A stretch of DNA of 64,000 nt, taken from NCBI GenBank assembly GCA_024398135.1, contig CP073750.1, forward strand, positions 310,001-374,000, written 5' to 3'. The DNA is from a bacterium SCSIO 12643. GTDB taxonomy: Bacteria; Bacteroidota; Bacteroidia; Flavobacteriales_G; Salibacteraceae. Positions 25,141 to 54,652 of this stretch are shown here, in pieces (the first letter of the stretch is position 1; every line of letters begins with the position of its first letter). The notes under the pieces are model-generated. The model searched no databases, was not told the origin of the DNA, and saw only the letters and a program-made list of their open reading frames with translations. The position numbers and the translations under genes are program-made.

Positions 25141-26145
25141 CTACCACTCCCAACCAAATCCTGTATTTAAAACATAATCCACTTCTCCTGCTCCTACAGT
25201 AGGTTGATTATCGTAGTTCAATGTAAAACCGCCTTTAATGTAAAAATCCAATGGTAAATCGTATTTAACATCCATCTTAAAGTCAGTTCTAAATCTACCT
25301 CTTTCCGTAATCCCGGGATAAGCTGAAACTTTAGTAAACAATCCAAAATCCCCAAAATCAAATAAGTTTAACTCTGTACTGATAAACCCCTCCATACTCT
25401 CTTTCCCATTCTCACCATTACTATAAGTTTCATTGATATATGCTGCTCCCCCAGCAAAACTCCAATACCATGTATTTTTATGAACGATATAATAACCAAA
25501 TCCTCCACGCCCATTAATCCTTAAATCTAAAAGCTGCTCCGTATTCGATAAAAAATCTGTTGCTCCGGTTAAAAACCAATCATCCGGTAAAAACAAATTA
25601 GCCGAAACACCACCTTCATTTCTAATCGTGGGTTGAATAGAATCTTGTGTAGAATTTAAAGAACTGTATCTGGCATCCCATGACCAGTTCTCACCCAAAT
25701 ATCCCAAACCTGCTGTAATGTTTAACTGTCGAAGGTTTTTGGCTTTGGTCACACTTAAACCAATATCCACATTCGCGTAAATCTGGCTCCAAAGTCCTTC
25801 ATCTAAGGATTTAAGATATACGATTTCATTCGATCGGACATATTTTTCTCCCTCCATAGTTTTGAGCATTAGGCTTACCGAATCCCCATGCGCAATAGCG
25901 CCTTTAAATCGGGTTCCATCTGATAATGTAATCAGAAATATAGTAGCTGTACTTAATCTTTTAACCCCCTTCCACTCTATCTTAAAATCAGAATCACTAT
26001 AGGAAGTTTTAAAGGTAATCACCCCTCTATCCAAAGTCTTTAATTCTCCTACTATCTGATCCCCATTGTTAAACAGAATAGTGTCTTGCCCATATGACAT
26101 TAAAACTCCAAAAAAACATATTAAAAGTAGTATCAGGTGACGCAT
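25141..26145 (-). CDS. DUF481 outer-membrane protein
   Basis: This 334-residue exported protein has a signal peptide (1-19, ending MSYGQ). The N-terminal part (20-120) holds beta-rich repeats (LFNNGDQIVGELKTLDRGVITFKTSYSD). The C-terminal barrel (about 125-334) has alternating aromatic strands (NWSWDARYSS, TWYWSFAGGAAY) and ends in a terminal aromatic strand, GFGWEW. This is the DUF481 layout. Function is unknown; family members are salt- or stress-related outer-membrane proteins. Confidence 0.85.
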   Translation of the reverse strand: MRHLILLLICFFGVLMSYGQDTILFNNGDQIVGELKTLDRGVITFKTSYSDSDFKIEWKGVKRLSTATIFLITLSDGTRFKGAIAHGDSVSLMLKTMEGEKYVRSNEIVYLKSLDEGLWSQIYANVDIGLSVTKAKNLRQLNITAGLGYLGENWSWDARYSSLNSTQDSIQPTIRNEGGVSANLFLPDDWFLTGATDFLSNTEQLLDLRINGRGGFGYYIVHKNTWYWSFAGGAAYINETYSNGENGKESMEGFISTELNLFDFGDFGLFTKVSAYPGITERGRFRTDFKMDVKYDLPLDFYIKGGFTLNYDNQPTVGAGEVDYVLNTGFGWEW

Positions 26146-26266: not shown

Positions 26267-26755
26267 ATGAAATTAAAATCTCTCTCGCTACTATTATTAA
26301 GTTCTGTATTTACCGTTTTTACAGTTTTAACCAGTTGTAACTCTTCTGCTGAAAATGATACTTCAAAAGCCAACGTAGAGCAAACTGCAAACGAAGATGA
26401 TTCTGAAACATCTAAAAAAGAATGTAAAAAAGGTGATGCGGAGTGCAAGAAGAAATGCAAAAAAGACAGTAAGTGCAAAAAAGATAAAGAATGTAAGAAG
26501 GATGGCAAATGTGAGAAAAAATGTGTTTCGACTTGCAAAGAAAAATGTAAAGGTGAATGTGGTAAGGGCGATTCTAAGTGTGATGAAGAATGTCAAAAAG
26601 CATGCGCAGAAAAATGTAAAAAAGAATGCTCTAAATCTGACTCAGCAGGTGTAGATCATAAATGTGGTGAAGGCAAGTGTGGCGAAGGTAAATGTGGTGA
26701 TAGCACACAAACTGAAGAACACAAATGTGGAGAGGGAAAATGTGGGGAACAATAA
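26267..26755 (+). CDS. Cysteine- and lysine-rich lipoprotein
   Basis: This 162-residue protein starts at the ATG at 26267, which opens a lipoprotein signal (lipobox LTSC, Cys at residue 24); an upstream in-frame TTG extends it without sense. The mature chain holds 20 further Cys spaced by 3-6 residues among Lys, Glu and Asp (KKECKKGDAECKKKCKKD). It ends with repeats of the form CGEGKCGEGKCG and HKCGEGKCG. The density suggests metal chelation, as in metallothionein-like or HvfA/bufferin-type proteins, whose EGKCGEGKCG repeats look alike. No DUF692 (HvfB) or HvfC gene is adjacent. It is predicted to be lipid-anchored in the envelope. Function is inferred only from composition. Confidence 0.8.
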   Translation: MKLKSLSLLLLSSVFTVFTVLTSCNSSAENDTSKANVEQTANEDDSETSKKECKKGDAECKKKCKKDSKCKKDKECKKDGKCEKKCVSTCKEKCKGECGKGDSKCDEECQKACAEKCKKECSKSDSAGVDHKCGEGKCGEGKCGDSTQTEEHKCGEGKCGEQ

Positions 26756-26777
26756 AACTTAAAAACTCTCATTTTTT

Positions 26778-26809
26778 AAAGGCCTTTTGAAATTCAAAAG
26801 GCCTTTTTT
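26778..26809 (+). terminator. Intrinsic terminator after the cysteine-rich lipoprotein
   Basis: The stem GGCCTTTTGAA/TTCAAAAGGCC is followed by T6 and lies 25 bp past the stop codon. It separates the two cysteine-rich genes into different transcripts. Confidence 0.92.
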
Positions 26810-26953
26810 ATTGACATCTACCTAAATATGAAAATCAGACTGAATGTAATGCCGAGAAACTTTCTTTCATTAACAAATAATTAGCTTCTTTTTTATCTTC
26901 TAAAAACCCTAAAACTCCTATATTTACTGGCTATAACACAAAAAACATTTTAT

Positions 26954-27256
26954 ATGAAAATCAACTTTTTATCTATTGTAGCTCTATTCTTATTTACACT
27001 GACCACAGTCACTATTCATGTAAATGCCAATACCTTACAATCCACCTCTATTTCTATTATTGATCACGATGGAGATTGTGATAAATGTAAAGATGGAAAA
27101 TGCGATGGCAAGTGTACCAAAAAGGAAGGTGAAAAAAAGTGCAGCGATGACTGTAAAAAAGAAGGGAAATGCACCAAAAAATCAGAAAGCGAAAAGAAAT
27201 CTGGATGCGCTGAAAAGAAATCCTGTGGAAATAAAAAAGGATGCGGTAAACACTAA
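26954..27256 (+). CDS. Small secreted cysteine-rich protein
   Basis: This 100-residue protein has a cleavable signal peptide (1-25, ending VNANT). The mature chain has 10 Cys in pairs (CDKCKDGKCDGKC, KKCSDDC, SCGNKKGCGKH) among Lys, Asp and Glu. It is a shorter, non-lipidated relative in style of the lipoprotein 200 bp upstream and probably binds soft or divalent metals, with a His near the C-terminus. It has its own terminator. No metal-responsive site was recognised before it; a TATATTTA hexamer-like box 30 bp upstream is one base off the usual -7 form. Confidence 0.75.
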   Translation: MKINFLSIVALFLFTLTTVTIHVNANTLQSTSISIIDHDGDCDKCKDGKCDGKCTKKEGEKKCSDDCKKEGKCTKKSESEKKSGCAEKKSCGNKKGCGKH

Positions 27257-27276: not shown

Positions 27277-27308
27277 TAAAAGCTCAGAATTACATCTGGG
27301 CTTTTTTT
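27277..27308 (+). terminator. Intrinsic terminator after the small cysteine-rich gene
   Basis: The stem AAAAGCTCAGA/TCTGGGCTTTT has one G-U pair and is followed by a run of seven T, about 20 bp after the stop codon. Confidence 0.85.
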
Positions 27309-27467: not shown

Positions 27468-30113
27468 ATGAACTTCGATAAATTCACAATAAAATCACAA
27501 GAAGCCATTCAACAAGGACAACAAATTACTTTGGGGAATGGACAACAAACTATTGATACTGCTCATATTCTGAAAGGTATCTTAATGGTAGACGAAAACG
27601 TTACGCCTTTTCTTTTGAAAAAAATGGGTGTCAACGTTCCTATTTTCACACAAGCTATTGACAGAATAATTGGGACATATCCTAAGGTCAGCGGTGGACA
27701 AATACAACTATCTCAAAATGCATCTCAAGCTTTAGTCAATGCGCAAAATATTGCACAAAAAAATGGTGATGAGTACACGAGCATTGAGCACATCATTTTA
27801 GGTTTACTAAAAGGAAATGATGAAATCGCTCGTATGATGAAAGACAGTGGACTAAATCAAAAAGATCTGCTATCTGCAATCAACGAATTACGTAAAGGTG
27901 AAAAAGTAACCAGCGCCAACGCTGAAGACAATTATCAATCTTTAGCAAAATATGCCATCAACCTAAATCAACAAGCCCAGGATGGTAAGTTAGATCCGGT
28001 TATTGGTAGAGATGAAGAAATCAGAAGAGTACTTCAAATTCTATCCAGAAGAACTAAAAACAATCCAATCCTGATTGGAGAACCCGGTGTGGGTAAAACC
28101 GCCATTGCAGAAGGTTTAGCACATCGTATTATTAATGGAGATGTGCCGGATAATCTAAAAAGTAAAAGTATCTATTCATTAGATATGGGCGCTTTGGTTG
28201 CCGGAGCAAAATTTAAAGGCGAATTTGAAGAACGTCTTAAAGCAGTGGTCAAAGAAGTGATCTCGGCTGACGGTGAGATTGTACTTTTCATTGATGAAAT
28301 CCATACACTGGTGGGAGCTGGTAAAGGTGAAGGAGCCATGGATGCTGCGAATATATTAAAACCAGCATTGGCTAGAGGAGAATTAAAAGCCATTGGGGCC
28401 ACTACATTAGCGGAATATCAAAAGTATTTTGAGAAAGACAAAGCATTAGAAAGAAGATTCCAAAAGGTAACGATTGATGAACCAAATGATGAAGATGCGA
28501 TTTCCATCTTAAGAGGAATTAAAGAAAAATATGAAACGCATCATAAGGTTAGAATTAAAGACGAGGCCATTTTAGCTGCTGTAGAATTATCTCAACGTTA
28601 CATTACAGATAGATTCCTTCCGGATAAAGCGATTGATTTGATTGATGAAGCCTCTTCCAAAATGCGTATGGAAATGAACTCCATGCCAGTAGAGTTAGAT
28701 GAAATTGAAAGGAAAATCAGACAACTTGAAATTGAACGTGAGGCCATTAAAAGAGAAAAAGATCAAAAGAAACTAGATATTCTAAATGCGGATATTGCGG
28801 AACTCAGCGATAAGAGAAATGATCTGAAAGCCCAATGGGAAAGCGAGCGTCAGGTGGTGGATGGAATTCAAAGCACTAAGGAACAAATTGAACAGTATAA
28901 ACTCGATGCGGAACGTGCTGAAAGAGATGGAAACTTTGCTTTAGTTGCGGAAATCAGATATGGAAAATTAGTTGAAGCTCAAGAAAAGTTAAATCAACTG
29001 GGCACCAAATTTCAGGAATTAAAAGACAAAGGCTCTGTTCTGATTAAAGAGGAAGTGGACGCTGAAGATATTGCTGAGGTAGTCGCAAAATGGAGCGGTG
29101 TTCCGGTAAGCAAAATGCTTCAATCTGAAAGACAGAAACTCCTTAATCTGGAATCTGAATTACATCATAGAGTTATCGGTCAGGATGAAGCCATTCAAGC
29201 GGTTAGTGATGCGGTACGTAGAAGTCGTGCAGGATTACAGGATCAACACCGTCCAATTGGATCTTTCCTCTTTCTGGGGACTACCGGGGTTGGAAAAACT
29301 GAGTTGGCTAAAGCCTTGGCAGAATTCCTATTTGACAACGAAAACGCAATGACCAGAATTGATATGAGTGAATATCAGGAACGTCATGCCGTTTCAAGAT
29401 TGGTAGGTGCGCCTCCGGGATATGTGGGATATGATGAAGGAGGTCAATTAACTGAAGCAGTCAGACGTAAACCTTATTCGGTGATTCTTTTAGATGAAAT
29501 AGAAAAAGCGCATCCTGATGTATTTAACATCTTACTGCAAGTATTGGATGACGGTAGATTAACCGATAATAAAGGGCGCGTAGCGAACTTTAAAAATACC
29601 ATTATCATCATGACATCCAATATGGGATCTGACATTATCAATGAAAGCTTTCAACAAATCAATGCTTCAAACTTGAATAGTGTGTTACAAAAAACAAAAA
29701 CACAATTATTGGAGTTATTAAAGAGAAGTTTGAAACCTGAGTTTTTAAACAGAATTGATGAAACAATCATGTTCCAACCACTCAATGAGGGAGACATCCA
29801 CGAGATTGTAAGATTACAATTCAAAGGGGTTCAGAAAATGCTACAAAAACAGGATATTCATATCTCCATTACAGACCAGGCCATTCGCCTCTTATCCAAT
29901 GAAGGATATGATCCTCAATTTGGTGCCAGACCAGTAAAAAGAGTCATCCAAAAACAATTGCTCAACCAATTGTCAAAAGAAATTCTCTCTGGTAACGTCC
30001 ACGCTGGTGCCCGCATTAGCATTGATGCAAGTGATGGTAAATTCATATTTAGCAATGTATTTAAAGACTCAGAGAATCCGGAAAATCCGGAATTGATGAA
30101 TCATTTAAATTAA
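27468..30113 (+). CDS. clpB: ATP-dependent disaggregase ClpB
   Basis: This 881-residue Hsp100 chaperone has the full ClpB layout: N-terminal repeat domain (1-145), NBD1 with Walker [10 protein letters not shown] (about 204-212) and Walker [11 protein letters not shown], a long coiled-coil middle domain (about 395-525), NBD2 with GTTGVGKTE (about 605-613) and [12 protein letters not shown], and a C-terminal sensor region ([10 protein letters not shown]). It works with DnaK to rescue aggregated proteins. No LGF-type ClpP-binding loop is seen, which fits ClpB rather than ClpA or ClpC. The acidic C-terminal tail ([15 protein letters not shown]) is slightly long. A strong terminator follows. Confidence 0.98.
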
Positions 30114-42780: not shown

Positions 42781-43683
42781 TTACTCCACGACCATCTTCC
42801 CTCTCTGATCCCCTATCACATACATATATACCCCGGATTCCAGCGTTTCAATATTGATCTCCGATTCCGGTGGATAAATCATTTGATGTAGTACCAATTG
42901 TCCGGTGATGGAATAAATCTTTAATTCTTGGGCGTCTCGAATATTAGGATCTAAAAATTGAATTCGGATGGTTTCTTGAGCCGGGTTTGGGGATATTCCT
43001 AACTTCTCTGAACTAACATCTAAACGCTTAACCGAATTTATAACAGCACAATTTGTATCGCAAGTAATTACTGAATAAATTACATTTCCATTCTGGACAA
43101 CACAATTTAGGCTTTCACTGCTTTCAAATGGACAATAAAAAGATCCTAATGGCCCAAAATTACTACCAATACCCTCAATATGATATAGATATACATCTTG
43201 CCATTCTATACAACTATCTAATAATAAACGTTTTCTGGGTATTCCGTCTATATCTATTGTATCTATACTCTTTACAGTTCTAAAGTTGTTATAAATAGGA
43301 TGTTTTAGAGTATCACCAATATTTAAGCTAAAGTCATACCACACCCTATCATCATTCCAATCGTTCATCCTTAAATAGACCTTTCTTTCAGTACTATCAT
43401 TCCTGAAATAACCAATTTGTTCTTGAACAAAATATGGAGTCGAATTAAAAATACCTCCCCATTCCCAAGGATAGATTAAACTCCGTTCCATAAGTTTATG
43501 ATATACCTTACCACTAATAACTGTATCACTATCAACTATAATTTCATATTTACGCCAATAACCTTCATGATTGGTTTCAAATCCTTTCCACCTCATATGC
43601 TTAGTAGGAAAAGGAACATACGATTGTGAATTTCCAATCTGAAATATTCCAAATAAAATCACTATTAAGTATAAAGTTCTCAT
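42781..43683 (-). CDS. T9SS cargo protein, type A paralogue 1
   Basis: This 300-residue protein has a signal peptide (1-19, ending GNSQ) and a type A N-terminal domain. That domain reads YVPFPTKHMRWKGFE, then YHKLMERS, VWYDFSLNIGDTL, IEGIGSNFGPLGSFYC and SLNCVVQNGNVIYSV. A 70-residue T9SS type A sorting domain follows (ISPNPAQETIRIQFLDPN, then ELKIYSITGQLVLHQMIY, ESGVYMYVIGD). It is last in the eight-gene minus-strand operon, 20 bp after a type B gene. Its closest relative is the type A paralogue at 46359-47270, including the spacer before it. It is predicted to be secreted by T9SS; its role is unknown. Confidence 0.85.
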   Translation of the reverse strand: MRTLYLIVILFGIFQIGNSQSYVPFPTKHMRWKGFETNHEGYWRKYEIIVDSDTVISGKVYHKLMERSLIYPWEWGGIFNSTPYFVQEQIGYFRNDSTERKVYLRMNDWNDDRVWYDFSLNIGDTLKHPIYNNFRTVKSIDTIDIDGIPRKRLLLDSCIEWQDVYLYHIEGIGSNFGPLGSFYCPFESSESLNCVVQNGNVIYSVITCDTNCAVINSVKRLDVSSEKLGISPNPAQETIRIQFLDPNIRDAQELKIYSITGQLVLHQMIYPPESEINIETLESGVYMYVIGDQRGKMVVE

Positions 43684-43703
43684 AGGCTTTTTATTTAATT
43701 ATA

Positions 43704-44513
43704 TCACTCCACCACCATCTTCCCTCTATAATCCCCTATCACATACATATACACACCAGATTCCAATGTTTCAATATTAATCTCCGATTCCGGTGGATAA
43801 ATCATTTGATGCAGCACCAATTGTCCGGTAATGGAATAAATCTTTAGTTCCTGGGAATCTCGTATATTGGGGTCTAAAAATTGAATTCGAATGGTTTCTT
43901 GTGCTGGGTTTGGGGTTATTTTAACTTTTGTTTCTTTATTATTCTCATAAACGCTTTGTGGAAAATCAAACATATAAATATCATCAATTATCCATCCATC
44001 TCTTCCTTCTGAAACACTATCACTATAGATGGTGAACTTAAATAACAAACTATCAGAATTTCCCCAACTTGCGCCAAAGGTAAAACCTTGCCAATTTGAG
44101 CTATGACCTTTAAACTGACCATCGTCAATTATCTGCCAAGTAATTCCCTTATCTCTAGAATATTGTATTTCTCCAAAATCATTTACCGAATCCATATCGA
44201 CCATGTACACAAAATTTAGTTCAGGCCATTCCCAAGAACTATTAAGTTTAGGAAACCATAAATAAAATGTAGAAGTATCATTTACAGAGTACGGATTTAT
44301 AGTATCAGTAACAATCGCGTTTGGCTGAGTTGTAGAACTAGTAAAATTCGATTTTTGTGGCTTCCCAATCTGCCAGATATTATTTGGATTAGATACTGTA
44401 TCTATCGTAATCAGATCCAAATTATTAGTATCATCAAAGCTTATTCTAATGGCTGATTGACTAAATACCTCTAAAGGGAATAAACAAATAGTAAGTAAAT
44501 ATTTCAAATTCAT
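43704..44513 (-). CDS. T9SS cargo protein, type B paralogue 1
   Basis: This 269-residue protein has a signal peptide (1-18, ending VFSQS) and a type B domain. That domain reads SFDDTNNLDLITIDTVSNPN, WQIGKPQK, PNAIVTD, EIQYSRDKGITWQ, LLFKFTIYSDS and GWIIDDIYMFD. The GWxIDDI ending and strand order suggest a jelly-roll (MAM/concanavalin-like) module, often carbohydrate- or protein-binding. The sorting domain is nearly identical to that of its five neighbours. It has a 17 bp gap to the preceding gene and 20 bp to the next. Confidence 0.83.
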   Translation of the reverse strand: MNLKYLLTICLFPLEVFSQSAIRISFDDTNNLDLITIDTVSNPNNIWQIGKPQKSNFTSSTTQPNAIVTDTINPYSVNDTSTFYLWFPKLNSSWEWPELNFVYMVDMDSVNDFGEIQYSRDKGITWQIIDDGQFKGHSSNWQGFTFGASWGNSDSLLFKFTIYSDSVSEGRDGWIIDDIYMFDFPQSVYENNKETKVKITPNPAQETIRIQFLDPNIRDSQELKIYSITGQLVLHQMIYPPESEINIETLESGVYMYVIGDYRGKMVVE

Positions 44514-44530
44514 CCTATTTAAGTCTTTAA

Positions 44531-45463
44531 TTATTCAATAACAATCTTCCCTCTATAATCCCCTATCACATACATATACACTCCCGATTCCAGTGTTTTA
44601 ATATTGATCTCCGATTCCGGTGGATGAATTATTTGATATAACACTAATTGTCCGGTGATAGAATAGATTTTCAATTCTTGTGAGTCTCGAATATTAGGGT
44701 CTAAAAATTGAAGTCGGATGGTTTCTTGCGCTGGGTTTGGGGATATATTGATTACGGTTTCATTTGCAAGCTCATTAACATTATTAAAAATATCCATTTT
44801 AATACATAGGTTATCAATTTGCCATCCTTCATGTCTGCCTATACTATCAGCCACAAAACTGAATTTCAACAAAATACTATCCTCTTTGAAAAGAGAATCA
44901 CCAAAAACAAGCTGTTCAATATTCTTTGAAATTTTTGAATGTACCCAACCATTTGAGTTTCCTGTAACTGATAAACTATCAAAGATTGTATCATTAAGGC
45001 CAAAAAAATAGTGGTAATTTTCATAATCCCCCCAGGTATAATTATATGTACTGGACAAAACATCATACCAGGTGTTTCCTCCGTTAAATGACATTTCAAT
45101 AGTTCCGTAATCATAAATTGAGTCTGTATCAAATCGATGTATCAATTCAATCTCCAAAGGATAAAATAGTCCTAGATAATTGGGTATCCACCCATGATAC
45201 GAATACGAAGCATAAAATATTGAAGTATCCTTGTTAGGATATAACGAATCCAAATCCGTAACGATCGAATTTAAACCTGAATAAGAACTATCAAACTCAG
45301 ATTTATTTGGTTTGCCAATTTCCCAAATTCCACTACTATCTATGTTTATTAAAACAACATTTGAATCAAAAGAATTACAGATTGAAAATGAATCAATCTG
45401 AGAGTAAGAATTCACCTGGACTATTATTAGATTTAAAAAAATAAGTAGTTTCAAATATTTCAT
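44531..45463 (-). CDS. T9SS cargo protein, type B paralogue 2 (divergent)
   Basis: This 310-residue protein has a signal peptide (1-21, ending VNSYSQ). It is the most divergent type B member: SICNSFDSNVVLINIDSSG replaces the usual start, but WEIGKPNKSEFDSSYSGLNSIVTDLDSLYPNKDTSIFYASYSY, GTIEMSFNGGNTWYDV and GWQIDNLCIKM keep the jelly-roll pattern. The sorting domain has three or four substitutions (IRLQFLD, LYQIIHPPE, IKTLESG) against the others, so it is older or has escaped homogenisation. It has 16 bp and 17 bp spacers. Confidence 0.82.
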   Translation of the reverse strand: MKYLKLLIFLNLIIVQVNSYSQIDSFSICNSFDSNVVLINIDSSGIWEIGKPNKSEFDSSYSGLNSIVTDLDSLYPNKDTSIFYASYSYHGWIPNYLGLFYPLEIELIHRFDTDSIYDYGTIEMSFNGGNTWYDVLSSTYNYTWGDYENYHYFFGLNDTIFDSLSVTGNSNGWVHSKISKNIEQLVFGDSLFKEDSILLKFSFVADSIGRHEGWQIDNLCIKMDIFNNVNELANETVINISPNPAQETIRLQFLDPNIRDSQELKIYSITGQLVLYQIIHPPESEINIKTLESGVYMYVIGDYRGKIVIE

Positions 45464-45479
45464 CTTGTTAAGTTTTTAG

Positions 45480-46340
45480 TTACTCCACGACCATCTTCCC
45501 TCTCTGATCCCCTATGGTATACATATACACTCCGGGTTCCAGCGTTTCAATATTGATCTCCGATTTCGGTGGATTAATCATTTGATGAATCACCAATTGT
45601 CCGGTTATAGAATAAATCTTTAATTCTTGGGCGTCTCGAATATTGGGGTCTAAAAATTGAATTCGAATGGTTTCTTGAGCTGGGTTAGGGTTAATATTGA
45701 TTTTTAACTCAATATTCTTCTCTACTATGTTTGATATATAATCATACATCTTTATATCATCTATTATCCATCCATCCTTAACATCGGGAATATTGTCAGA
45801 GTAAAAAATAAATTTAAATAGAATACTATCAGTATAACCATAATTATCATCCCAATTACCAAACCCTATAAACATATCCGTCCAATGTAAATTTCTTCCT
45901 GTAAAAGGGTTATTTCGATTACAATTACAATTTACCGAAATACCAGGATTGTTATCTTCAACCTTAAACCAAGTACTTCCTTTATCTGGAGAAAATTGAA
46001 TCTCTCCATAATCATTTAACGAGTCAGTATCAGTTTTAAATTTAAATTCTAAAGTAGGCCACCACCCAGGTTCTTTATGTTCAGTATACCACAAATAAAA
46101 TACAGATGTGTCGTTAATTGGATAAGGATTTATTGTATCAGTAACCATGACGTTTGGATCAGAATAAGCACTGTTAAAAGAGCCTTTTTGAGGTTTCCCA
46201 ATCTGCCATATATTATTGGGATTAGATAAGGTATCTATGATAATCAAATCCAAATTACTGGTATCGTCAAAAGAGATTACTTCTTGCCCCAAAGTCCCAA
46301 AAGGGAGTAGACAAAAAAACAATATATATTTAAAATCCAT
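45480..46340 (-). CDS. T9SS cargo protein, type B paralogue 3
   Basis: This 286-residue protein has a signal peptide (1-18, ending TLGQ) and a full type B domain: SFDDTSNLDLIIIDTLSNPNN, WQIGKPQKGSFNSAYSDPN, EIQFSPDKGSTWFKVEDNN, CNCNRNNPFTGRNLHW, LLFKFIFYSDN and GWIIDDIKMYD. It is closest to the type B member at 47291-48157, which shares the insert with Cys near residue 145 and the GxWDDxxGYTDSILFKF run. The sorting domain differs from the majority form at only a few residues (HQMINPPKSE, LEPGVYMYTIGD). Confidence 0.83.
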   Translation of the reverse strand: MDFKYILFFCLLPFGTLGQEVISFDDTSNLDLIIIDTLSNPNNIWQIGKPQKGSFNSAYSDPNVMVTDTINPYPINDTSVFYLWYTEHKEPGWWPTLEFKFKTDTDSLNDYGEIQFSPDKGSTWFKVEDNNPGISVNCNCNRNNPFTGRNLHWTDMFIGFGNWDDNYGYTDSILFKFIFYSDNIPDVKDGWIIDDIKMYDYISNIVEKNIELKININPNPAQETIRIQFLDPNIRDAQELKIYSITGQLVIHQMINPPKSEINIETLEPGVYMYTIGDQRGKMVVE

Positions 46341-46358
46341 CTCTTGTTAAGTTTAAAG

Positions 46359-47270
46359 TTACTCCACCACCATCTTCCCTTTCTGATCACCTATCGTATA
46401 CATATACACTCCAGATTCCAGCGTTTCAATATTGATCTCCGATTCCGGTGGACGAATCATTTGATGAAATACCAATTGTCCGGTGATGGAATAAATCTTT
46501 AGTTCTTGTGAAGCACGAATATTAGGGTCTAAAAATTGAATTCGGATGGTTTCTTGAGCAGGGTTTGGGGATATTCCTAACTTTCCTGAACTACTATCTA
46601 AATGCTCAACCGAATTTATTATTGAACAGGCAGAATCTAAAGCGAATAAATAATAGATTACACTACCATTTTGCTCCACACATTTTAATATTTCAGAATC
46701 CTCGTAAGCACAATCATACGAAGCGAATGGTCCGAAAGTACTCCCAATGCCTTCTATAAAATATAAATTAGCCAATAAATTAGTTGAATCACCGCATTCG
46801 GCTAATAACAATCTTCTTCTCGCTAACCCGTCAATATTAATTGTATCTATATCAATTACAGATTTATATGATACCGGATGAAAAGGATTAACCATAGTAT
46901 CTCCAATATTTAAACTGAAATCATACCAAATTTCCTCTTTATTCCATCCTTCAGCTAATAAGTAAATCTTTTTATTTATGCTATCATTCCGAAAAACACC
47001 CATATATTTTTGAGAAAATACTGGAGGTTTATATGTTAAACCTCCCTGAGCATAATACGTCCAACTTTTTTCGATAAGCTTATGATATGTTATCCCCCCA
47101 ATAATTGTGTCTCCGTCAATAATAACATCATAAAACTTCCTAGAGTTCGGATAATACATATATTCCATTCCTTTCCACCTCATATTTTCGGTTGGAAACG
47201 GAACATAAGTTTGAGCGTTTCCTATCTCAAATATTCCAACTAAAATCACTATTAAGTATAAAGTTCTCAT
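46359..47270 (-). CDS. T9SS cargo protein, type A paralogue 2
   Basis: This 303-residue protein has a signal peptide (1-19, ending GNAQ) and a type A domain: YVPFPTENMRWKGMEYMYYPN, then YHKLIEKSW, EEIWYDFSLNIGDTM, FIEGIGSTFGPFASYDC and LKCVEQNGSVIYYLF. A T9SS type A sorting domain follows (IRASQELKIYSITGQLVFHQMI). The first residues are almost identical to those of the type A copy at 42781-43683 (MRTLYLIVILxGIF). The 20 bp spacer before the gene differs by one base from the one before that copy. Confidence 0.85.
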   Translation of the reverse strand: MRTLYLIVILVGIFEIGNAQTYVPFPTENMRWKGMEYMYYPNSRKFYDVIIDGDTIIGGITYHKLIEKSWTYYAQGGLTYKPPVFSQKYMGVFRNDSINKKIYLLAEGWNKEEIWYDFSLNIGDTMVNPFHPVSYKSVIDIDTINIDGLARRRLLLAECGDSTNLLANLYFIEGIGSTFGPFASYDCAYEDSEILKCVEQNGSVIYYLFALDSACSIINSVEHLDSSSGKLGISPNPAQETIRIQFLDPNIRASQELKIYSITGQLVFHQMIRPPESEINIETLESGVYMYTIGDQKGKMVVE

Positions 47271-47290
47271 AGGCTTTTTGTTTAATTATA

Positions 47291-48157
47291 TCACTCCACG
47301 ACCATCTTCCCTCTCTGATCCCCTACGATATACATATATACTCCGGATTCCAACATTTCAATATTGATCTCCGATTCCGGTGGGTAAGTCATTTGATGAA
47401 GTACCAATTGTCCGGTGATGGAATAAATCTTTAATTCTTGGGCGTCTCGAATATTGGGGTCTAAAAATTGAATTCGGATGGTTTCTTGTGCTGGGTTTGG
47501 GGTTATATTAATCTGGGAGACATTGTTACTCTCCTGAACGTCCATATAATAATCGTAGGTAAAAATATTATCTATCATCCAACCTTCACGATCATTATGA
47601 ATACCATCACTATAGAACGTAAATTTGAATAAAATACTATCTGTATATCCAAAATAATCATCCCAACCAACAAAGGCTATTCCGAAATCTAACCAATCAG
47701 AACCACTATTTCCAGTAAATAAATCTTTACAACTACTACACCTTAAGTTATATGGTAAATTGGTATCAGCTAAAGAATACCAAGAAACTCCCTTATCAGT
47801 TGAAAATTCAATTTTACCAAAGTCATATAATGAATCTGAATCAATTTTATAATTGAACAATAAAGCTGGCCAATTATATGGAGTAAGATGATTTGTATGC
47901 CATAAATAAAAAGATGATGTATCATTAATTGGATACGTATTGACCGTATCTGTAATTATCGCATTGGGACTGGTCTGAGCACTATCAAATAGCACTTTTT
48001 GAGGTTTCCCAATCTGCCAGATATTATTGGGATTAGATAGTGTATCTATTATAATCAGATCCAAATAATTGCTGTCTTCAAAGTTTATTGGAGAAGTCCA
48101 TTGTCCCATTAACCATACTGGGCACAAACAAAAAATAAATAAATATCTTAAATTCAT
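47291..48157 (-). CDS. T9SS cargo protein, type B paralogue 4
   Basis: This 288-residue protein has a signal peptide (1-18, ending LMGQ) and a type B jelly-roll-like domain: NFEDSNYLDLIIIDTLSNPN, WQIGKPQKVLFDSAQTSPN, KIEFSTDKGVSWYSLADTN, DDYFGYTDSILFKFTFYSDG and GWMIDNIFTYD. The sorting domain is of the homogenised kind (IRDAQELKIYSITGQLVLHQM). It is the first of the six short paralogues, 16 bp after the 512-residue propeller-like gene. It forms, with the next type A gene, one of the two duplicated B-A units. Confidence 0.84.
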   Translation of the reverse strand: MNLRYLFIFCLCPVWLMGQWTSPINFEDSNYLDLIIIDTLSNPNNIWQIGKPQKVLFDSAQTSPNAIITDTVNTYPINDTSSFYLWHTNHLTPYNWPALLFNYKIDSDSLYDFGKIEFSTDKGVSWYSLADTNLPYNLRCSSCKDLFTGNSGSDWLDFGIAFVGWDDYFGYTDSILFKFTFYSDGIHNDREGWMIDNIFTYDYYMDVQESNNVSQINITPNPAQETIRIQFLDPNIRDAQELKIYSITGQLVLHQMTYPPESEINIEMLESGVYMYIVGDQRGKMVVE

Positions 48158-48173
48158 CTTATTAAGCTTTTAG

Positions 48174-49712
48174 TTATTCAATAACTATCTTCCCCCATAC
48201 CTCATCGATTTTATAGGTATAGATTCCTGAGGCTAAACCGGAAACGGATATCGTATTTTGATACGATTGCAGTTTTTGAGTCAGTACGCGTTTACCTAAC
48301 AAATCATAAAGTTCAAAATCATATACGCGAGGGTTCCCATTGGGAGTGATTTCGATATTTAGAAGATTATGTGTTGGGTTGGGATATATTTTTAGCGCAG
48401 CAATAGATGTTTCTATTTGAGGAACACTTACCACTTCACAGCCTTGAACTAAACATCCAAAACTATCTACTTTGACCACCCAGGTATCTTGCGTTCCGGT
48501 ATCGGGTGGATTGGGGAGCAAATATCCTGCTGCTGCAAAACCTCCATCATCTGTTTGTACTATACTATTAAAAAAATGATCGGACCAGGGACTTTGTACG
48601 TTCTCAGGATGAACAAAACTTCTACTCCATAAGGAATCTCCATTCGCAGAATATTTAGCAATCACACCCATCGTACTGTATTTTCCCTTAAAATTTACAG
48701 TATCTAGATTAAGTCTAACATGCGTTCCACAAACTACCAAACTCCCATCGGCTAATTCTATCAAATCGTGATATTCTGAAAATACAGGTGAAGGAGAACC
48801 TTCTTTATTCATCTTAGACCACATGATATTTCCCTGACTATCCAATTTCACTATCCAGGGAAAATGAGTATCAGACCCAGTATATTTCATAACCCCCAAA
48901 CCACCTACAAATGCGTAACCTCCATCTTGTGTATTTATAATATTATACACGGGTAAATTGTTGGTATCTACTGCCCCATACGTTTGTTCCCACTCCACAT
49001 TTCCAACACTATCAATCTTAATAATATACGGACGTTGTTCATCTGAAAAATCCGGGTGATAAACCGCTCCTCCTATTATATAGCCACTATCTGGAGTAAT
49101 TTGAACCGAAAAACCTTGTTCAAAATTCGTAGTATTTCCATAAACCCTACGCCATAGTTCATTACCTAAACTATCAGTTTTAATCAAAATTATATCTTCT
49201 GTTCCCATTTGATTTGCAGGAATAGTTTGAATTCTTCCGACAAATACTAACCCCTCATCCCTATCTTCTACAACATCAAGTACTGACAGAAACAAAGAAT
49301 TATCTATATATGTTTTAGTAAAGACTGTATCGCCATAAACATCATACTTAACGACCATATATCGATAAACCAAACTATCGGTTATGGATTCAATACTCAT
49401 TACATCATAAAATCCTCCTTGAGAATAACCAATTAATGAACCTGAAAAAACTTCTGTACTATCTGCTTCTATTCTTACACCAAGGGTATTGCTTCCATTG
49501 GTAATGTTCATGGTCGAAAAAGTCTGACTTTTAAACCCGGCTGCATTAAAGTTATAGCCGATATTCACATATAATGAATCATTTTGATTCACTATGGCCC
49601 GAGTGCCGCTTCCCCAGGCACCCGTTTCCGGGTACCGCATATTAAAATAGGTGGATTGGGCTCCCAACTGAGAGCCTAATCCGAATAATATGATGATCCA
49701 GAAGAATCGCAT
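48174..49712 (-). CDS. T9SS cargo protein with beta-propeller-like repeats
   Basis: This 512-residue protein has a signal peptide (1-18, ending LGAQ). About six or seven repeats of the type GYIIGGAVYHPDFSDEQRPYIIKIDSVGNVEWEQTYG occur (DGGYAFVGGLG, GSLVVCGTHV, DDGGFAAAGYLLPN), the pattern of bacterial delta-60 / PQQ-like propeller repeats. The T9SS type A sorting domain (IYPNPTHNLLNIEITPN) is of a different lineage from those of its downstream neighbours. Its start overlaps the stop of the previous gene by one base (TAATG), so translation is coupled. Confidence 0.85.
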   Translation of the reverse strand: MRFFWIIILFGLGSQLGAQSTYFNMRYPETGAWGSGTRAIVNQNDSLYVNIGYNFNAAGFKSQTFSTMNITNGSNTLGVRIEADSTEVFSGSLIGYSQGGFYDVMSIESITDSLVYRYMVVKYDVYGDTVFTKTYIDNSLFLSVLDVVEDRDEGLVFVGRIQTIPANQMGTEDIILIKTDSLGNELWRRVYGNTTNFEQGFSVQITPDSGYIIGGAVYHPDFSDEQRPYIIKIDSVGNVEWEQTYGAVDTNNLPVYNIINTQDGGYAFVGGLGVMKYTGSDTHFPWIVKLDSQGNIMWSKMNKEGSPSPVFSEYHDLIELADGSLVVCGTHVRLNLDTVNFKGKYSTMGVIAKYSANGDSLWSRSFVHPENVQSPWSDHFFNSIVQTDDGGFAAAGYLLPNPPDTGTQDTWVVKVDSFGCLVQGCEVVSVPQIETSIAALKIYPNPTHNLLNIEITPNGNPRVYDFELYDLLGKRVLTQKLQSYQNTISVSGLASGIYTYKIDEVWGKIVIE

Positions 49713-52700
49713 TATTTGATGATTTCTAACATTTGTTTTTGTACTTCATGTGCTCCATCCAAAATACGGATCACATACATTCCGGTAGGTAATGATCCCA
49801 TATTAATATTTTGGCTTGCTGTGTTCATTTTTTGGTTGGTCAATACCACTTTCCCCTGGCTGTTAATGATTTCTATACGAATCACATTTTCAGAAGCATA
49901 TCCAGCACTTTGTACTGTAATATATTCCTGTGCCGGATTTGGGAATATTTCAAAGATAACTTCTTCTTGTACTTCGCGCAATTCAAAAACGCTTTGTTGC
50001 GCTCTTTTACCTGCTGGTGGGTTATAGGTCACCATCTCCGGTAAATACAGCTCTTCCTGACTAAACTTTAACCACGATTTTGCATACACCCCTTTTCGGG
50101 TATCAGTTTCCTGACTATAGTTATCTAAAGTCGTCTCGGTAATGGAACTCAACTCCTTCAATTGCTGTTTCCCTCCGGAAACGGCCTGATCATATATATT
50201 GTATACATCTTCAACGCCTGAGATCATATCCTGTTGCCAGGAGGTTAGTTCATGCGCATCATCCATCGCACTCATAATCAAATTTGCTTGCTCCATATTT
50301 CCCATCCCGCGGTAATACGCGATGCGTTGCAAATCCGCCATTGGCGTTGGAATCTCAGCCAAGAGTGCCGGAATACTATCTGAATCATCTCCGGTACTAT
50401 CCGCCATCCAGTGGGCAATCAGTAATCGTGCAGATTTATTCATGGCTATGGCTTCATGGGCAATCTCAGCTTCGAGTACATCACGTTGTGACAGTACTTC
50501 AAATAATCCTAAAAAGGTATTGATCATATAAGCCGGCATCGGAACCGTTTTGGTTTCTAATAAGTTCATGATTTCCTCATTTCGAGAAGCATGAGCATTC
50601 ACCATCAATACATCCAAAAGTAGCGCATTGGACAATAATCCATCATTAATGGTTTCTATAATCACTTCATCACTTAACGGGGAATCATTGATTAAATCAT
50701 TACGTAAATTCCAGGCATCCTGAGGTTGTGTGGTTTGCACGGTATTCAATAACCCATAGGTATCTCCACCATCAACCGTACTGGTATAGACATATTGCGC
50801 TTGATGGTAATTGGACTTAGCTTCATTAAACACACTGCGTTCACTTTCTCCTTTTTGTTGATCCATTCGTCCGCGATCCTGACTTAAAAAATGCTCAATA
50901 CTCGAAAGACAATTATCATTAGGGTTGATGCCCCCTTGTAAATCATGGGTAATGACCTTTAACGGATCAATATCGGTCGGTTCTAAAATATATCCTGCCG
51001 AATTGGTATGATGAAAGTAATTCATGATCACCCCAATGGAAGAATTATTGGCAATATGTTTTTCAGGAAATAAACTACTGCTATTGGTAAAGGCATTATC
51101 CGCAGCATGATTTGAAGCTCCTTGATTTCTGGCAATTCCAGTTCCTCCATGAATGGTGATATCATAAATCCCCGGATTTTGATGGAGATTACATTCATAT
51201 TGTAGTCCAAAGAAAGTATTACCAGGGTCATTATTATCCTTATACGCCATATTCCCATAATAGGCATTCTCAAAACCATTCTTATCAATCAGATTCACTG
51301 CTCCACCGGTAGAACGCGCTAGAATCCCAGTCGTGAGTCCATCCAGTTTATTTTGGGTTACGGTAAATTGATCTGCCACATTTAAATAAATCCCAATAGA
51401 ACTTGGGGGTTGCACCCCAAAACCATTGGCATCCAGGCTAAATGAATTTCGGGTAATCACCGCATGTTGTACTCCATTGGCCACCACCCCATAATCACAA
51501 TTGATAAAGTTGGTCGTATCTACCATAAACGCATAGCCCATTCCACTACTGGTGGCATCAATTCCGGCTTTTAGTCCTATAAAATGACTTTGTACCGGAG
51601 TAGTACATGGATACTGGTTACACCATTCTTTTACGGTATAATCGGCATCCCAGGAGTAAATCCCCGCTTTGTTTAAACTCTGCCCCGAGATGTTTTTAAA
51701 ATCACATCCGTCAAAATCAATTCCACGTACTTGCCATAGGGTTACCATGGCATCTCTTGGTGGTTTCACATCAAATAAATAGTTCTGGTCTATGATAAAA
51801 TCACATTTATAAAACGCACTGCGATAAGGCGCCACTTGTCCTGCATTTGGCCCACTATTATAGTGGTTTTCAAACGCCATAAACTCTACATCTCTTCGGT
51901 TGTTTTTAAAGAATGAACTACTTGCATAGATCATTCCCCCACGCATATTCCAATCATTTGGATTCCATAAACGCACCGCATTATCCGCATTTTCAATAGT
52001 GGAATAATTCATGGTTAGTTTCCCCACCAAACAAGATGTCCCAGAAGGACAATACTGGGAATTGGTGTTATATGAACTATTCCCCCATACTTCAATGCCA
52101 TCCCAAAAAGCCCCACATTCATTGGTAATGGTACTTGAGTTTAAAATCAACTCCGCCCCCTGATCTACAATAATCTTGGTTCCGGCTGCCATACTGATGG
52201 TCGCGTTGTTGATGGTGAGTTTATCTCCCGGTTTGATATGTATCGTTTGATGTATTTTTTGATCTGCATTCCATACTTCACCATTAGGACTACCTGCTAG
52301 AATTTCATTCGCAGGTAATAAATCTGTACTCCACATCCCTCGCCCATATGTAGCTGCATATATTTTTCGATGACAATAATTTATCTCTACATCCATCACC
52401 ACCACTGAAGGTAATCCTGAATTAAAGCATTCCCATTGATTCATAGATGCGTCTCTATAAAACACACCGATATCCGTAGCTAAATACAATCGATCATTGG
52501 AACCTTTTTCATATTTAATCTGGTGTACCGGAAAGTTCTCTAACCCCTCAGAGTAATTACTCCATGTTGTCCCTCCATTTGTAGAATGAAATACTTTATC
52601 TGGATTTGGAGTATTTGAATTATCATAAAAACCACCTAACGTAATCCATAATTCTTGATCATCATCCGGATTGACTTCAATATCCGTTATGGATGAATTA

Positions 52701-54652
52701 TCTCTGGCCGCCCATTCCGGAGTAATCCCTATCCAGGTTGCGCCACCGTCAGTTGTTTTAAATAATGCCGAATCAATCAATGTTCCAGAACCCCATTGCG
52801 TTCTATCCGTAGATAAATAGATCAGATTAGAATTGGTATAAGACATGGCTAAGTCAGACACATATCTTTTGGAGTTTAATGTCGGTGATATATTTACTTG
52901 CGAAGCATATATATTTGATGCTGTTAAATCATGTTTATATACATCATGAAGTCCAAAATAAAACACACTTGGATCCTGTGTATCCAACATAAATGCAGTA
53001 GTATGTGTAGCAACTCCTAAACACAAGGATCCTGGCATCCCTACTTTAGCACAAATATTTGTTTCAATGGTCTTCGTAGAAGATAATTGATTAATATCCG
53101 ACATACCAATATAGCTATTGGTACTATGAATCACATATTCTTTACCTCCAAAATTGGTAAACATTGAACTTCCGCCATCTCCACCTGATATTTTTCTCCA
53201 TTGGCGATTTACCTGCAACATGGTTCCATTATCCTGCGTTCCCATAACTTCATAAGCCTTGCCATATTTATTCACGTCACATTCCCAGGCTTGTGTGATA
53301 TCTAAACCATTTCGCGTCTTTTTATATACTGAACTGGGGCCGACAATTAAGCTTACACCACCATCTGTTCCGATTAACAATGAATCATTTATACCATTCG
53401 TCCCAGAGGCTGATGATGATATATATGCAATGGAATGAATATCATCATGAATACTACCATAACTTGTATATTCAACAAAACTATTTCCATTATTAATAGT
53501 CCTATGCACATCCTTTCCTCCAATGTAAAAGATGTTAGATTCGGTAGGAGAAACCGCCAATGCGTTTCGATTGGGTATTTGCCCACTAAATGATGCTGTC
53601 TTTGACGTATATGTGTTTCCTCTATCATTTGAAATAAATGCTTTTCCAACATATTCTAAATATAAATTATCTGGCGCTGCAGGAGTTACATCTATAAAAA
53701 AACGCTCTCCGGTCATATTGGGATCAGTAATATCTGTCCATATGGTAGTATTCATATTATAACGCCAGACCCTAGCTGGATTTGAACCATTCTTATGCGC
53801 AGTCACATACAATAACATATCCCCCCCTGAATTGATCATCTTTAACTTATCAAATTTTTGTCCATTGGGGTCCGTTCTAAAAACTGAAAAAGTGGTACCT
53901 CCATCCAATGTCCTCATGATTTGACCCTCATAGGTTACATACAACTCATTGACGTTCAGTGGTGACATTTCAATATCTGCAACAATTTTATATTGGGTAG
54001 TACCATTAAAAGTCTGAGATATATTTTCCCAGGTTTGCCCTCCATTTGTCGTTTTATATATTCCTGCTCCATACCGAGAACTTATTGGACCCGATAATCC
54101 TGTTGCAATCCATACAATATCAGAATTAGTCGGATGAATTACGATATCCACAATACCTAAACCCGGAACACGAATAGAATCCACGTCAAATACACTTTGC
54201 CATGAATTACCCAAATTGGTACTTTTAAACAGGCCTCCAGTATTTGAACCTGCATATACAATGTCGTGATTTTGCTCATACACTGCTATACTTTCTATTC
54301 TACCAATTCCATTAGAATTAATTGGTAAGGTCCCCAAGGGAATTGTTGATGGCCCCTCACTTTTCCAGTTTCCCAGGCTTCCACAAGTTACAAATCCAGC
54401 ATCAGGTGCATCTGTATAACCTGTAGTTCCATCAGTGTTCAATCTAGTTTTCCAAAATTGCTCCCATCTGGCATAATTCTTTAAATCTGAAGAATCACTA
54501 TCGGTAAGAATAGCCTTATTCTGATATAAGGCTTTAACCGAAGTTTGAATGTTCTCAAAGGTCATGTTATGATTACTTATATAATCATCAACTGACTGTC
54601 CAAAAGAGTTAAATGTAATGGTTAGCGCTAAAAGAGTTTTAAAAAGTTTCAT
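49712..54652 (-). CDS. Giant T9SS cargo protein: sortilin-like propeller plus beta-helix
   Basis: This 1646-residue protein has a signal peptide (1-18, ending SFGQS). Residues about 95-780 hold BNR/sortilin-type propeller repeats (GGLFKSTNLGNSWQSV, YKTTNGGQTWENI, ATDIGVFYRDAS). Residues about 800-1230 hold right-handed beta-helix-like repeats of short strands (WDGIEVWGNSSYN, SSFFKNNRRDVEF). A long helical region follows (about 1260-1560), then a T9SS type A sorting domain (IFPNPAQEYITVQS, PTGMYVIRIL). Propeller plus beta-helix suggests an adhesin or glycan-active surface protein, but no catalytic residue is identified. It heads the eight-gene cargo operon. Confidence 0.88.
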   Translation of the reverse strand: MKLFKTLLALTITFNSFGQSVDDYISNHNMTFENIQTSVKALYQNKAILTDSDSSDLKNYARWEQFWKTRLNTDGTTGYTDAPDAGFVTCGSLGNWKSEGPSTIPLGTLPINSNGIGRIESIAVYEQNHDIVYAGSNTGGLFKSTNLGNSWQSVFDVDSIRVPGLGIVDIVIHPTNSDIVWIATGLSGPISSRYGAGIYKTTNGGQTWENISQTFNGTTQYKIVADIEMSPLNVNELYVTYEGQIMRTLDGGTTFSVFRTDPNGQKFDKLKMINSGGDMLLYVTAHKNGSNPARVWRYNMNTTIWTDITDPNMTGERFFIDVTPAAPDNLYLEYVGKAFISNDRGNTYTSKTASFSGQIPNRNALAVSPTESNIFYIGGKDVHRTINNGNSFVEYTSYGSIHDDIHSIAYISSSASGTNGINDSLLIGTDGGVSLIVGPSSVYKKTRNGLDITQAWECDVNKYGKAYEVMGTQDNGTMLQVNRQWRKISGGDGGSSMFTNFGGKEYVIHSTNSYIGMSDINQLSSTKTIETNICAKVGMPGSLCLGVATHTTAFMLDTQDPSVFYFGLHDVYKHDLTASNIYASQVNISPTLNSKRYVSDLAMSYTNSNLIYLSTDRTQWGSGTLIDSALFKTTDGGATWIGITPEWAARDNSSITDIEVNPDDDQELWITLGGFYDNSNTPNPDKVFHSTNGGTTWSNYSEGLENFPVHQIKYEKGSNDRLYLATDIGVFYRDASMNQWECFNSGLPSVVVMDVEINYCHRKIYAATYGRGMWSTDLLPANEILAGSPNGEVWNADQKIHQTIHIKPGDKLTINNATISMAAGTKIIVDQGAELILNSSTITNECGAFWDGIEVWGNSSYNTNSQYCPSGTSCLVGKLTMNYSTIENADNAVRLWNPNDWNMRGGMIYASSSFFKNNRRDVEFMAFENHYNSGPNAGQVAPYRSAFYKCDFIIDQNYLFDVKPPRDAMVTLWQVRGIDFDGCDFKNISGQSLNKAGIYSWDADYTVKEWCNQYPCTTPVQSHFIGLKAGIDATSSGMGYAFMVDTTNFINCDYGVVANGVQHAVITRNSFSLDANGFGVQPPSSIGIYLNVADQFTVTQNKLDGLTTGILARSTGGAVNLIDKNGFENAYYGNMAYKDNNDPGNTFFGLQYECNLHQNPGIYDITIHGGTGIARNQGASNHAADNAFTNSSSLFPEKHIANNSSIGVIMNYFHHTNSAGYILEPTDIDPLKVITHDLQGGINPNDNCLSSIEHFLSQDRGRMDQQKGESERSVFNEAKSNYHQAQYVYTSTVDGGDTYGLLNTVQTTQPQDAWNLRNDLINDSPLSDEVIIETINDGLLSNALLLDVLMVNAHASRNEEIMNLLETKTVPMPAYMINTFLGLFEVLSQRDVLEAEIAHEAIAMNKSARLLIAHWMADSTGDDSDSIPALLAEIPTPMADLQRIAYYRGMGNMEQANLIMSAMDDAHELTSWQQDMISGVEDVYNIYDQAVSGGKQQLKELSSITETTLDNYSQETDTRKGVYAKSWLKFSQEELYLPEMVTYNPPAGKRAQQSVFELREVQEEVIFEIFPNPAQEYITVQSAGYASENVIRIEIINSQGKVVLTNQKMNTASQNINMGSLPTGMYVIRILDGAHEVQKQMLEIIK

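Follow-up and report, generated by a model that had tools for sequence, protein, structure and literature searches.

Proteins with the EGKCG repeat in Bacteroidota without the maturase MNIO (DUF692) are mostly lipoproteins that lack a leader, and in MNIO genomes they carry the leader and no lipobox. One such lipoprotein, P0001, is encoded beside clpB in the window (the whole stretch of DNA analyzed, 64,000 nucleotides). Its gene anatomy, its conservation, the absence of MNIO and of DUF2063, the purifying selection acting on the gene and the link between lipobox and MNIO absence are established. We regard it as an even bet that P0001 is a lipid-anchored metal sequesterer of the envelope, which belongs to an MNIO-independent branch of the EGKCG proteins and binds soft metals, probably Cu(I), by unmodified thiols.

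Locus and architecture of P0001

A preliminary description had placed two exported cysteine-rich proteins beside clpB, each with a terminator of its own, and the open reading frames, the hairpin search and Pfam agree on this arrangement:

25141..26145, minus strand: divergent gene of a DUF481 outer-membrane protein, the upstream neighbor (PF04338, 59.8 bits)
26267..26755, plus strand: P0001, gene of a cysteine-rich lipoprotein (162 aa, 21 Cys; orthologues at the same site in genomes G001 and G002)
26267..26338, plus strand: signal peptide and lipobox Cys24 of P0001 (residues 1-24, pattern match and by eye)
26492..26638, plus strand: Cys hairpin domain of P0001 (alignment of five sequences; AlphaFold2 model)
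26639..26752, plus strand: EGKCG tail of P0001, a KCGExKCG domain of the HvfA type (NF050137, 45 bits, cut-off 19.5)
26778..26806, plus strand: terminator-like hairpin 3' of P0001 (hairpin search)
26954..27256, plus strand: P0002, gene of a secreted cysteine-rich protein (100 aa, 10 Cys)
27278..27305, plus strand: terminator-like hairpin 3' of P0002 (hairpin search)
27468..30113, plus strand: clpB, the downstream neighbor (Pfam ClpB_D2-small, AAA_2, Clp_N)

The two terminator-like hairpins compare to 0.6 expected from shuffled sequences, and, as judged by eye, the P0001 orthologues of G001 and G002 are each followed by a hairpin that has a T run. With Cys fractions of 13% and 10%, compared to a median of 0.8%, P0001 and P0002 are the top two among the 60 ATG-started open reading frames in the window that span 90 aa or more. 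The cysteine counts given earlier, 20 after the anchor in a protein of the lipidated type and 10 in one of the secreted type, are correct: P0001 possesses one Cys at the lipobox (VLTSC) and 20 beyond it, and the signal peptide of P0002 is by eye of the ordinary type. Elsewhere in the window, an uninterrupted run of seven genes on the minus strand (42781-49712) encodes proteins that all terminate in a type IX secretion sorting domain (PF18962); a 1646-aa open reading frame at 49712-54652 adjoins this run.

P0001 is organized into the lipobox, a charged linker, the Cys hairpin and the EGKCG tail, in this order. The mature protein contains nine Cys pairs at a spacing of four residues compared to 2.7 in shuffled sequences, and none of 5000 shuffles reached nine. 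Eight cysteines lie in the hairpin, in two rows of four at positions i, i+4, i+8 and i+12, and they are invariant in all five aligned sequences, which include two from Flavobacteriales MAGs outside the genus. AlphaFold2 predicts two helices for the hairpin core with moderate confidence (mean pLDDT 66); the model of full-length P0001 was too poor to be used (pLDDT 39). A profile search of P0001 against solved structures gave no match, no match was found among plasmids, and neither whole P0001 nor whole P0002 has a Pfam or NCBIfam match above cut-off.

CX3C hairpins consist of disulfide-linked helices. The i,i+4 rows of cysteines on two predicted helices, and the weak resemblance that the hairpin shows to a small TIM subunit (E 0.64), would fit a thiol-redox or disulfide protein of the envelope, in which the CxxxC stripes link the helices and provide redox buffering or structure and not metal storage. 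This explanation appears rather doubtful, as the EGKCG tail is common to copper-binding peptides and independent of the hairpin, and the hairpin is absent from the simple relatives L018, L080, L086 and L091.

The idea that both genes form one system had to be given up. P0002 has a match in its own genome only and none in the other 59 of 60 relatives, and it is missing between the lipoprotein gene and clpB in both congeners, where the gap measures 224 bases (G001) and 225 bases (G002). The lipoprotein is therefore the conserved unit. P0002 itself is weakly similar to residues 1-85 of P0001 and to an HvfA-like protein of its own genome (L025), and it shows no excess of Cys pairs at spacing four (p 0.31, shuffles).

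Conservation and missing maturation partners

A search with P0001 in 60 relatives, own genome included, led to matches in 17, most of them to the EGKCG tail alone. The two other searchable genomes of the genus, G001 and G002, contain true orthologues, and the lipoprotein adjoins clpB in all three genus genomes; by eye, both orthologues lie between the DUF481 gene and clpB, arranged as in the window. In the G002 assembly a contig break falls inside the lipoprotein gene (the start of L030 and the end of L031), and these contig ends translate to peptides with the look of adapter read-through. A functional tie to clpB was considered and rejected: the proximity is confined to the genus and other lineages have different neighbors, so that it is probably a matter of position rather than function. 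No copper genes were recognized next to P0001. In two lineages a lipoprotein gene adjoins a 3-hydroxyacyl-CoA dehydrogenase gene (L052, 3686-5119; L058 and L062, 4869-6460); at a distance of a few genes L052 has an Hsp90 gene, and L058 and L062 have a gene that by eye is FtsH-like.

Between the window and G001, 17 out of 19 cysteines of P0001 are kept compared to 50 out of 122 other residues; the homologues thus retain their cysteines, a point on which the preliminary description had made its proposal depend. The P0001 orthologues of G001 and G002 differ by a dN of 0.26 and a dS of 1.49, and the second lipoprotein, from the paralogue family in the own genome, by a dN of 0.03 and a dS of 0.59 between the same two genomes; for P0001 of the window genome compared to its relatives dS is close to saturation. 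These lipoprotein genes are under purifying selection with the cysteines best kept, and decay of P0001 is unlikely.

This bears on the suggestion that P0001 is the decayed and functionless remainder of an HvfABC cluster that has been lost. Sister genera of the same family do possess an operon of an HvfA-like protein, DUF692 and DUF2063, headed, by eye, by the genes of an apparent sigma factor and of a small protein that contains Cys, and PMC12452194 considers that the rare MNIO-free genomes may have lost the function. A leftover is nevertheless very improbable for a gene that is kept beside clpB throughout the genus under purifying selection, with its cysteines best retained, and that has a lipobox and a distinct architecture and is no decayed leader form.

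The repeats had been said to recall HvfA, and the isolated tail indeed scores 45 bits with the HvfA-family KCGExKCG profile NF050137 (cut-off 19.5). For whole P0001 this profile reported nothing; a six-frame search of the genome found the tail independently (38.3 bits). The HvfA equivalog NF050188 gives 25.9 bits for the tail at a cut-off of 95, which is also missed by HvfA-like proteins adjoining DUF692 in two relatives (33.9 and 58.8 bits). To speak of a system of a new kind was too strong, since P0001 belongs to the EGKCG kind as a variant of it.

KCGExKCG proteins are encoded at three loci of the own genome: besides P0001 there is a second lipoprotein at C1:3578847-3579209, and C1:1539122-1539481 encodes a secreted protein of the HvfA-like type. 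Part of the second lipoprotein (L018) is 75% identical to the P0001 tail over 36 aligned positions, and in G001 the repeat regions of both lipoproteins start with MKCGEGKC; judging from these sequences an exchange of tails within the genome is possible. A GMC oxidoreductase adjoins an MNIO-free KCGExKCG protein in the own genome (L025/L028, 9123-11885) and, within another family, in two genomes (L097, 6720-8950; L098, 4003-6646); gluconate dehydrogenase subunit 3 is also found at L028 and L098, and the orientation varies. The GMC oxidoreductase was rejected as a partner of P0001: it recurs at L025 and in G201 and G264, and never beside P0001.

The DUF692 and HvfC partners, which had been noted as missing from the locus, are missing from the whole genome as well. 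PF05114 (DUF692, MNIO) has no match at E<=10 in the own genome, a single contig of 4.12 Mb, or in any of the three genus genomes; as a positive background it occurs above cut-off in 21 of the 60 relatives. At E<=0.1, DUF2063 (HvfC) is absent from all 11 MNIO-free genomes searched, own genome included, and present in both controls. A leader motif like LGSGSELR, located upstream of the repeats in other proteins, is also absent from P0001; this type of leader is defined from the Bacteroidota HvfA-like proteins analyzed here and is not a published definition. As a conserved repeat of the copper-binding type occurs here without its usual modifying enzyme, these results suggest that the EGKCG repeat is able to work as plain thiols.

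Two explanations invoke a modifying enzyme all the same. P0001 might be a modified RiPP metallophore, with its EGKCG cysteines converted either by an MNIO too far diverged for recognition or by an unrecognized enzyme whose gene lies elsewhere. The tail retains the motif that is modified by MNIO, and modified lipidated EGKCG proteins exist, namely NedA (PMC12636315). The lack of PF05114 in the genus extends to G060, G061 and G062 (nothing at E<=1), DUF2063 is missing too and the lipoproteins have no LGSGSELR-like leader motif, which renders a modified P0001 unlikely. That P0001 is the substrate of a radical-SAM CXXX-repeat maturase is barely credible. TIGR04117 gives its Cys-rich middle an E value of 0.032 (14.3 bits compared to a cut-off of 50) and TIGR04118 one of 0.08, weak scores that in either case remain below cut-off, and the maturase TIGR04115 gave nothing in six out of six genomes with the P0001 architecture and a sub-cut-off signal in 10 out of 14 controls.

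Lipobox and MNIO across Bacteroidota

NF050137 was surveyed in 60 relatives, 396 genomes of the class and 392 genomes of the phylum, sets which overlap, and matched in 22, 27 and 7 genomes, respectively. PF05114 occurs in 39 of the 396 class genomes and in all five new phylum genomes. The 27 class genomes with an NF050137 match divide into 19 with and 8 without PF05114, one of the latter (G149) having an in-frame stop. G149, with the stop within its match, and G019, whose protein was not read, were left out before counting. The main test also left out G060-G063 and other loci from a search with the lipoprotein as query, because such a query favors lipoproteins. Where the pattern failed, assignment was by eye, as for the lipobox of the G001 orthologue, the leader of G227 and five phylum genomes.

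None of the 29 MNIO genomes whose proteins were read has a lipobox. In 28 of them, G068 being the exception, there is an LGSGSELR-like leader, recognized by the pattern in 22 genomes and by eye in 6; that of G508 has diverged to LGSANNLR. Out of the nine MNIO-free genomes with an intact match, seven encode a lipoprotein (G000, G001, G002, G057, G166, G201 and G264), two are free of a lipobox (G025 and G263) and a single one (G025) has the leader. The lipobox thus goes along with MNIO absence by genome (7/9 compared to 0/29, Fisher p 2.9e-6) and by genus (4/6 compared to 0/17, Fisher p 0.0017), values that are rough because genomes and genera are related and not independent samples. If G060-G063 are added, the counts become 10/13 compared to 0/29 by genome and 6/9 compared to 0/17 by genus.

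Three further MNIO-free lipoprotein genomes, Crocinitomix sp. SZUA-1404 and the Flavobacteriales AF_MB37 and C_MB131, came to light in the search for which the lipoprotein served as query. Both Flavobacteriales MAGs encode the same Cys hairpin plus KCGEGKCG, without MNIO. The Crocinitomix protein has a looser architecture, with five Cys pairs at spacing four compared to 3.2 in shuffled sequences (p 0.19). DUF692 is present in the flanks of 15 out of the 22 loci from this search and absent from those of the other 7.

Against a strict rule stand lipobox-free forms in the MNIO-free genomes G025, G263 and G063 as well as L025 in the own genome; among the genomes from the lipoprotein query, the counter-case is a Saprospiraceae MAG (locus L060), MNIO-free and with a form without lipobox. 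In G025 the HvfA-like protein (L017) has an intact leader in an MNIO-free genome, and one KCG is read as KSG. From its sequence G025 looks like a recent, remnant-like loss of the maturase.

Proposed function and related systems

In the mechanism that we infer, P0001 would be exported by Sec, lipidated at Cys24 and anchored in the outer membrane, from where it would display its EGKCG tail, which is flexible, and a hairpin of helices that bears two stripes of four Cys each. Tail and stripes would bind ions of soft metals, Cu(I) being the most likely, through putative plain thiolates. P0001 might thereby act as an envelope trap similar to a metallothionein and limit the entry of metal or the damage caused by it.

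Bacterial metallothioneins are small, Cys-rich proteins that bind soft metals. Their resemblance to P0001 is an analogy of how both may work and nothing beyond that; P0001 differs as an envelope lipoprotein with no Pfam match above cut-off. The copper storage proteins Csp, of which exported forms exist, are four-helix bundles lined with Cys and carry CxxxC rows on their helices. P0001 likewise has CxxxC rows on predicted helices, but only a two-helix segment (pLDDT 66, a model of moderate confidence) and no match to a PDB profile. With HvfA/oxazolin/Buf_EGKCG (NF050188, NF050137) it shares the small size, the abundance of Cys, the export signal and the repeated EGKCG tail; it differs from them in the absence of MNIO, DUF2063 and leader, in its predicted lipid anchor and extra Cys hairpin, and in a score below the equivalog cut-off (25.9 of 95 bits).

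According to PMC12452194, which defines Buf_EGKCG, 67 out of 2583 genomes are without MNIO, a number judged rare, and it is supposed there that in these either the modification is not needed or the function is lost. In our Bacteroidia 8 out of 27 genomes are MNIO-free (7 out of 26 minus the broken match), a share that looks larger than the published 2.6%, the two not being strictly comparable because genomes and profile differ. NedA is presented in PMC12636315 as a lipidated EGKCG protein modified by NedBC (MNIO and partner). P0001 agrees with it in the lipoprotein signal and the EGKCG repeats and differs in that MNIO and partner genes are both absent from its genome. PMC13097082 assigns 5-thiooxazole to EGKCG and, as does PMC12636315, reports copper binding by modified EGKCG peptides; an EGKCG cluster in Microbulbifer is described in PMC12538549. 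One has to consider that the published copper binding refers to thiooxazole-bearing EGKCG and that plain thiols could form disulfides in the oxidizing envelope. EGKCG proteins that are lipidated and accompanied by MNIO have already been published, as have the rare EGKCG genomes without MNIO. In a literature search that was thin on subscription journals we found no publication on the combination of the two, a class of lipidated EGKCG proteins that occur without MNIO.

We tentatively propose, at somewhat less than even chances, that Bacteroidota possess a separate class of lipid-anchored, maturase-free EGKCG metal-binding proteins that is maintained by selection. If this is true, the EGKCG repeat in its plain thiol form would be a metal-binding unit by itself, and the modification by MNIO would be optional, improving an older thiol system, or would have been added to such a system later. 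Alternatively, membrane anchoring would have replaced the modification, in P0001 with the added Cys hairpin. The own architecture of the MNIO-free proteins and the selection acting on them speak against the view that they are defunct, and the MNIO-free lipoproteins provide a concrete set of proteins for asking whether unmodified EGKCG binds metal.
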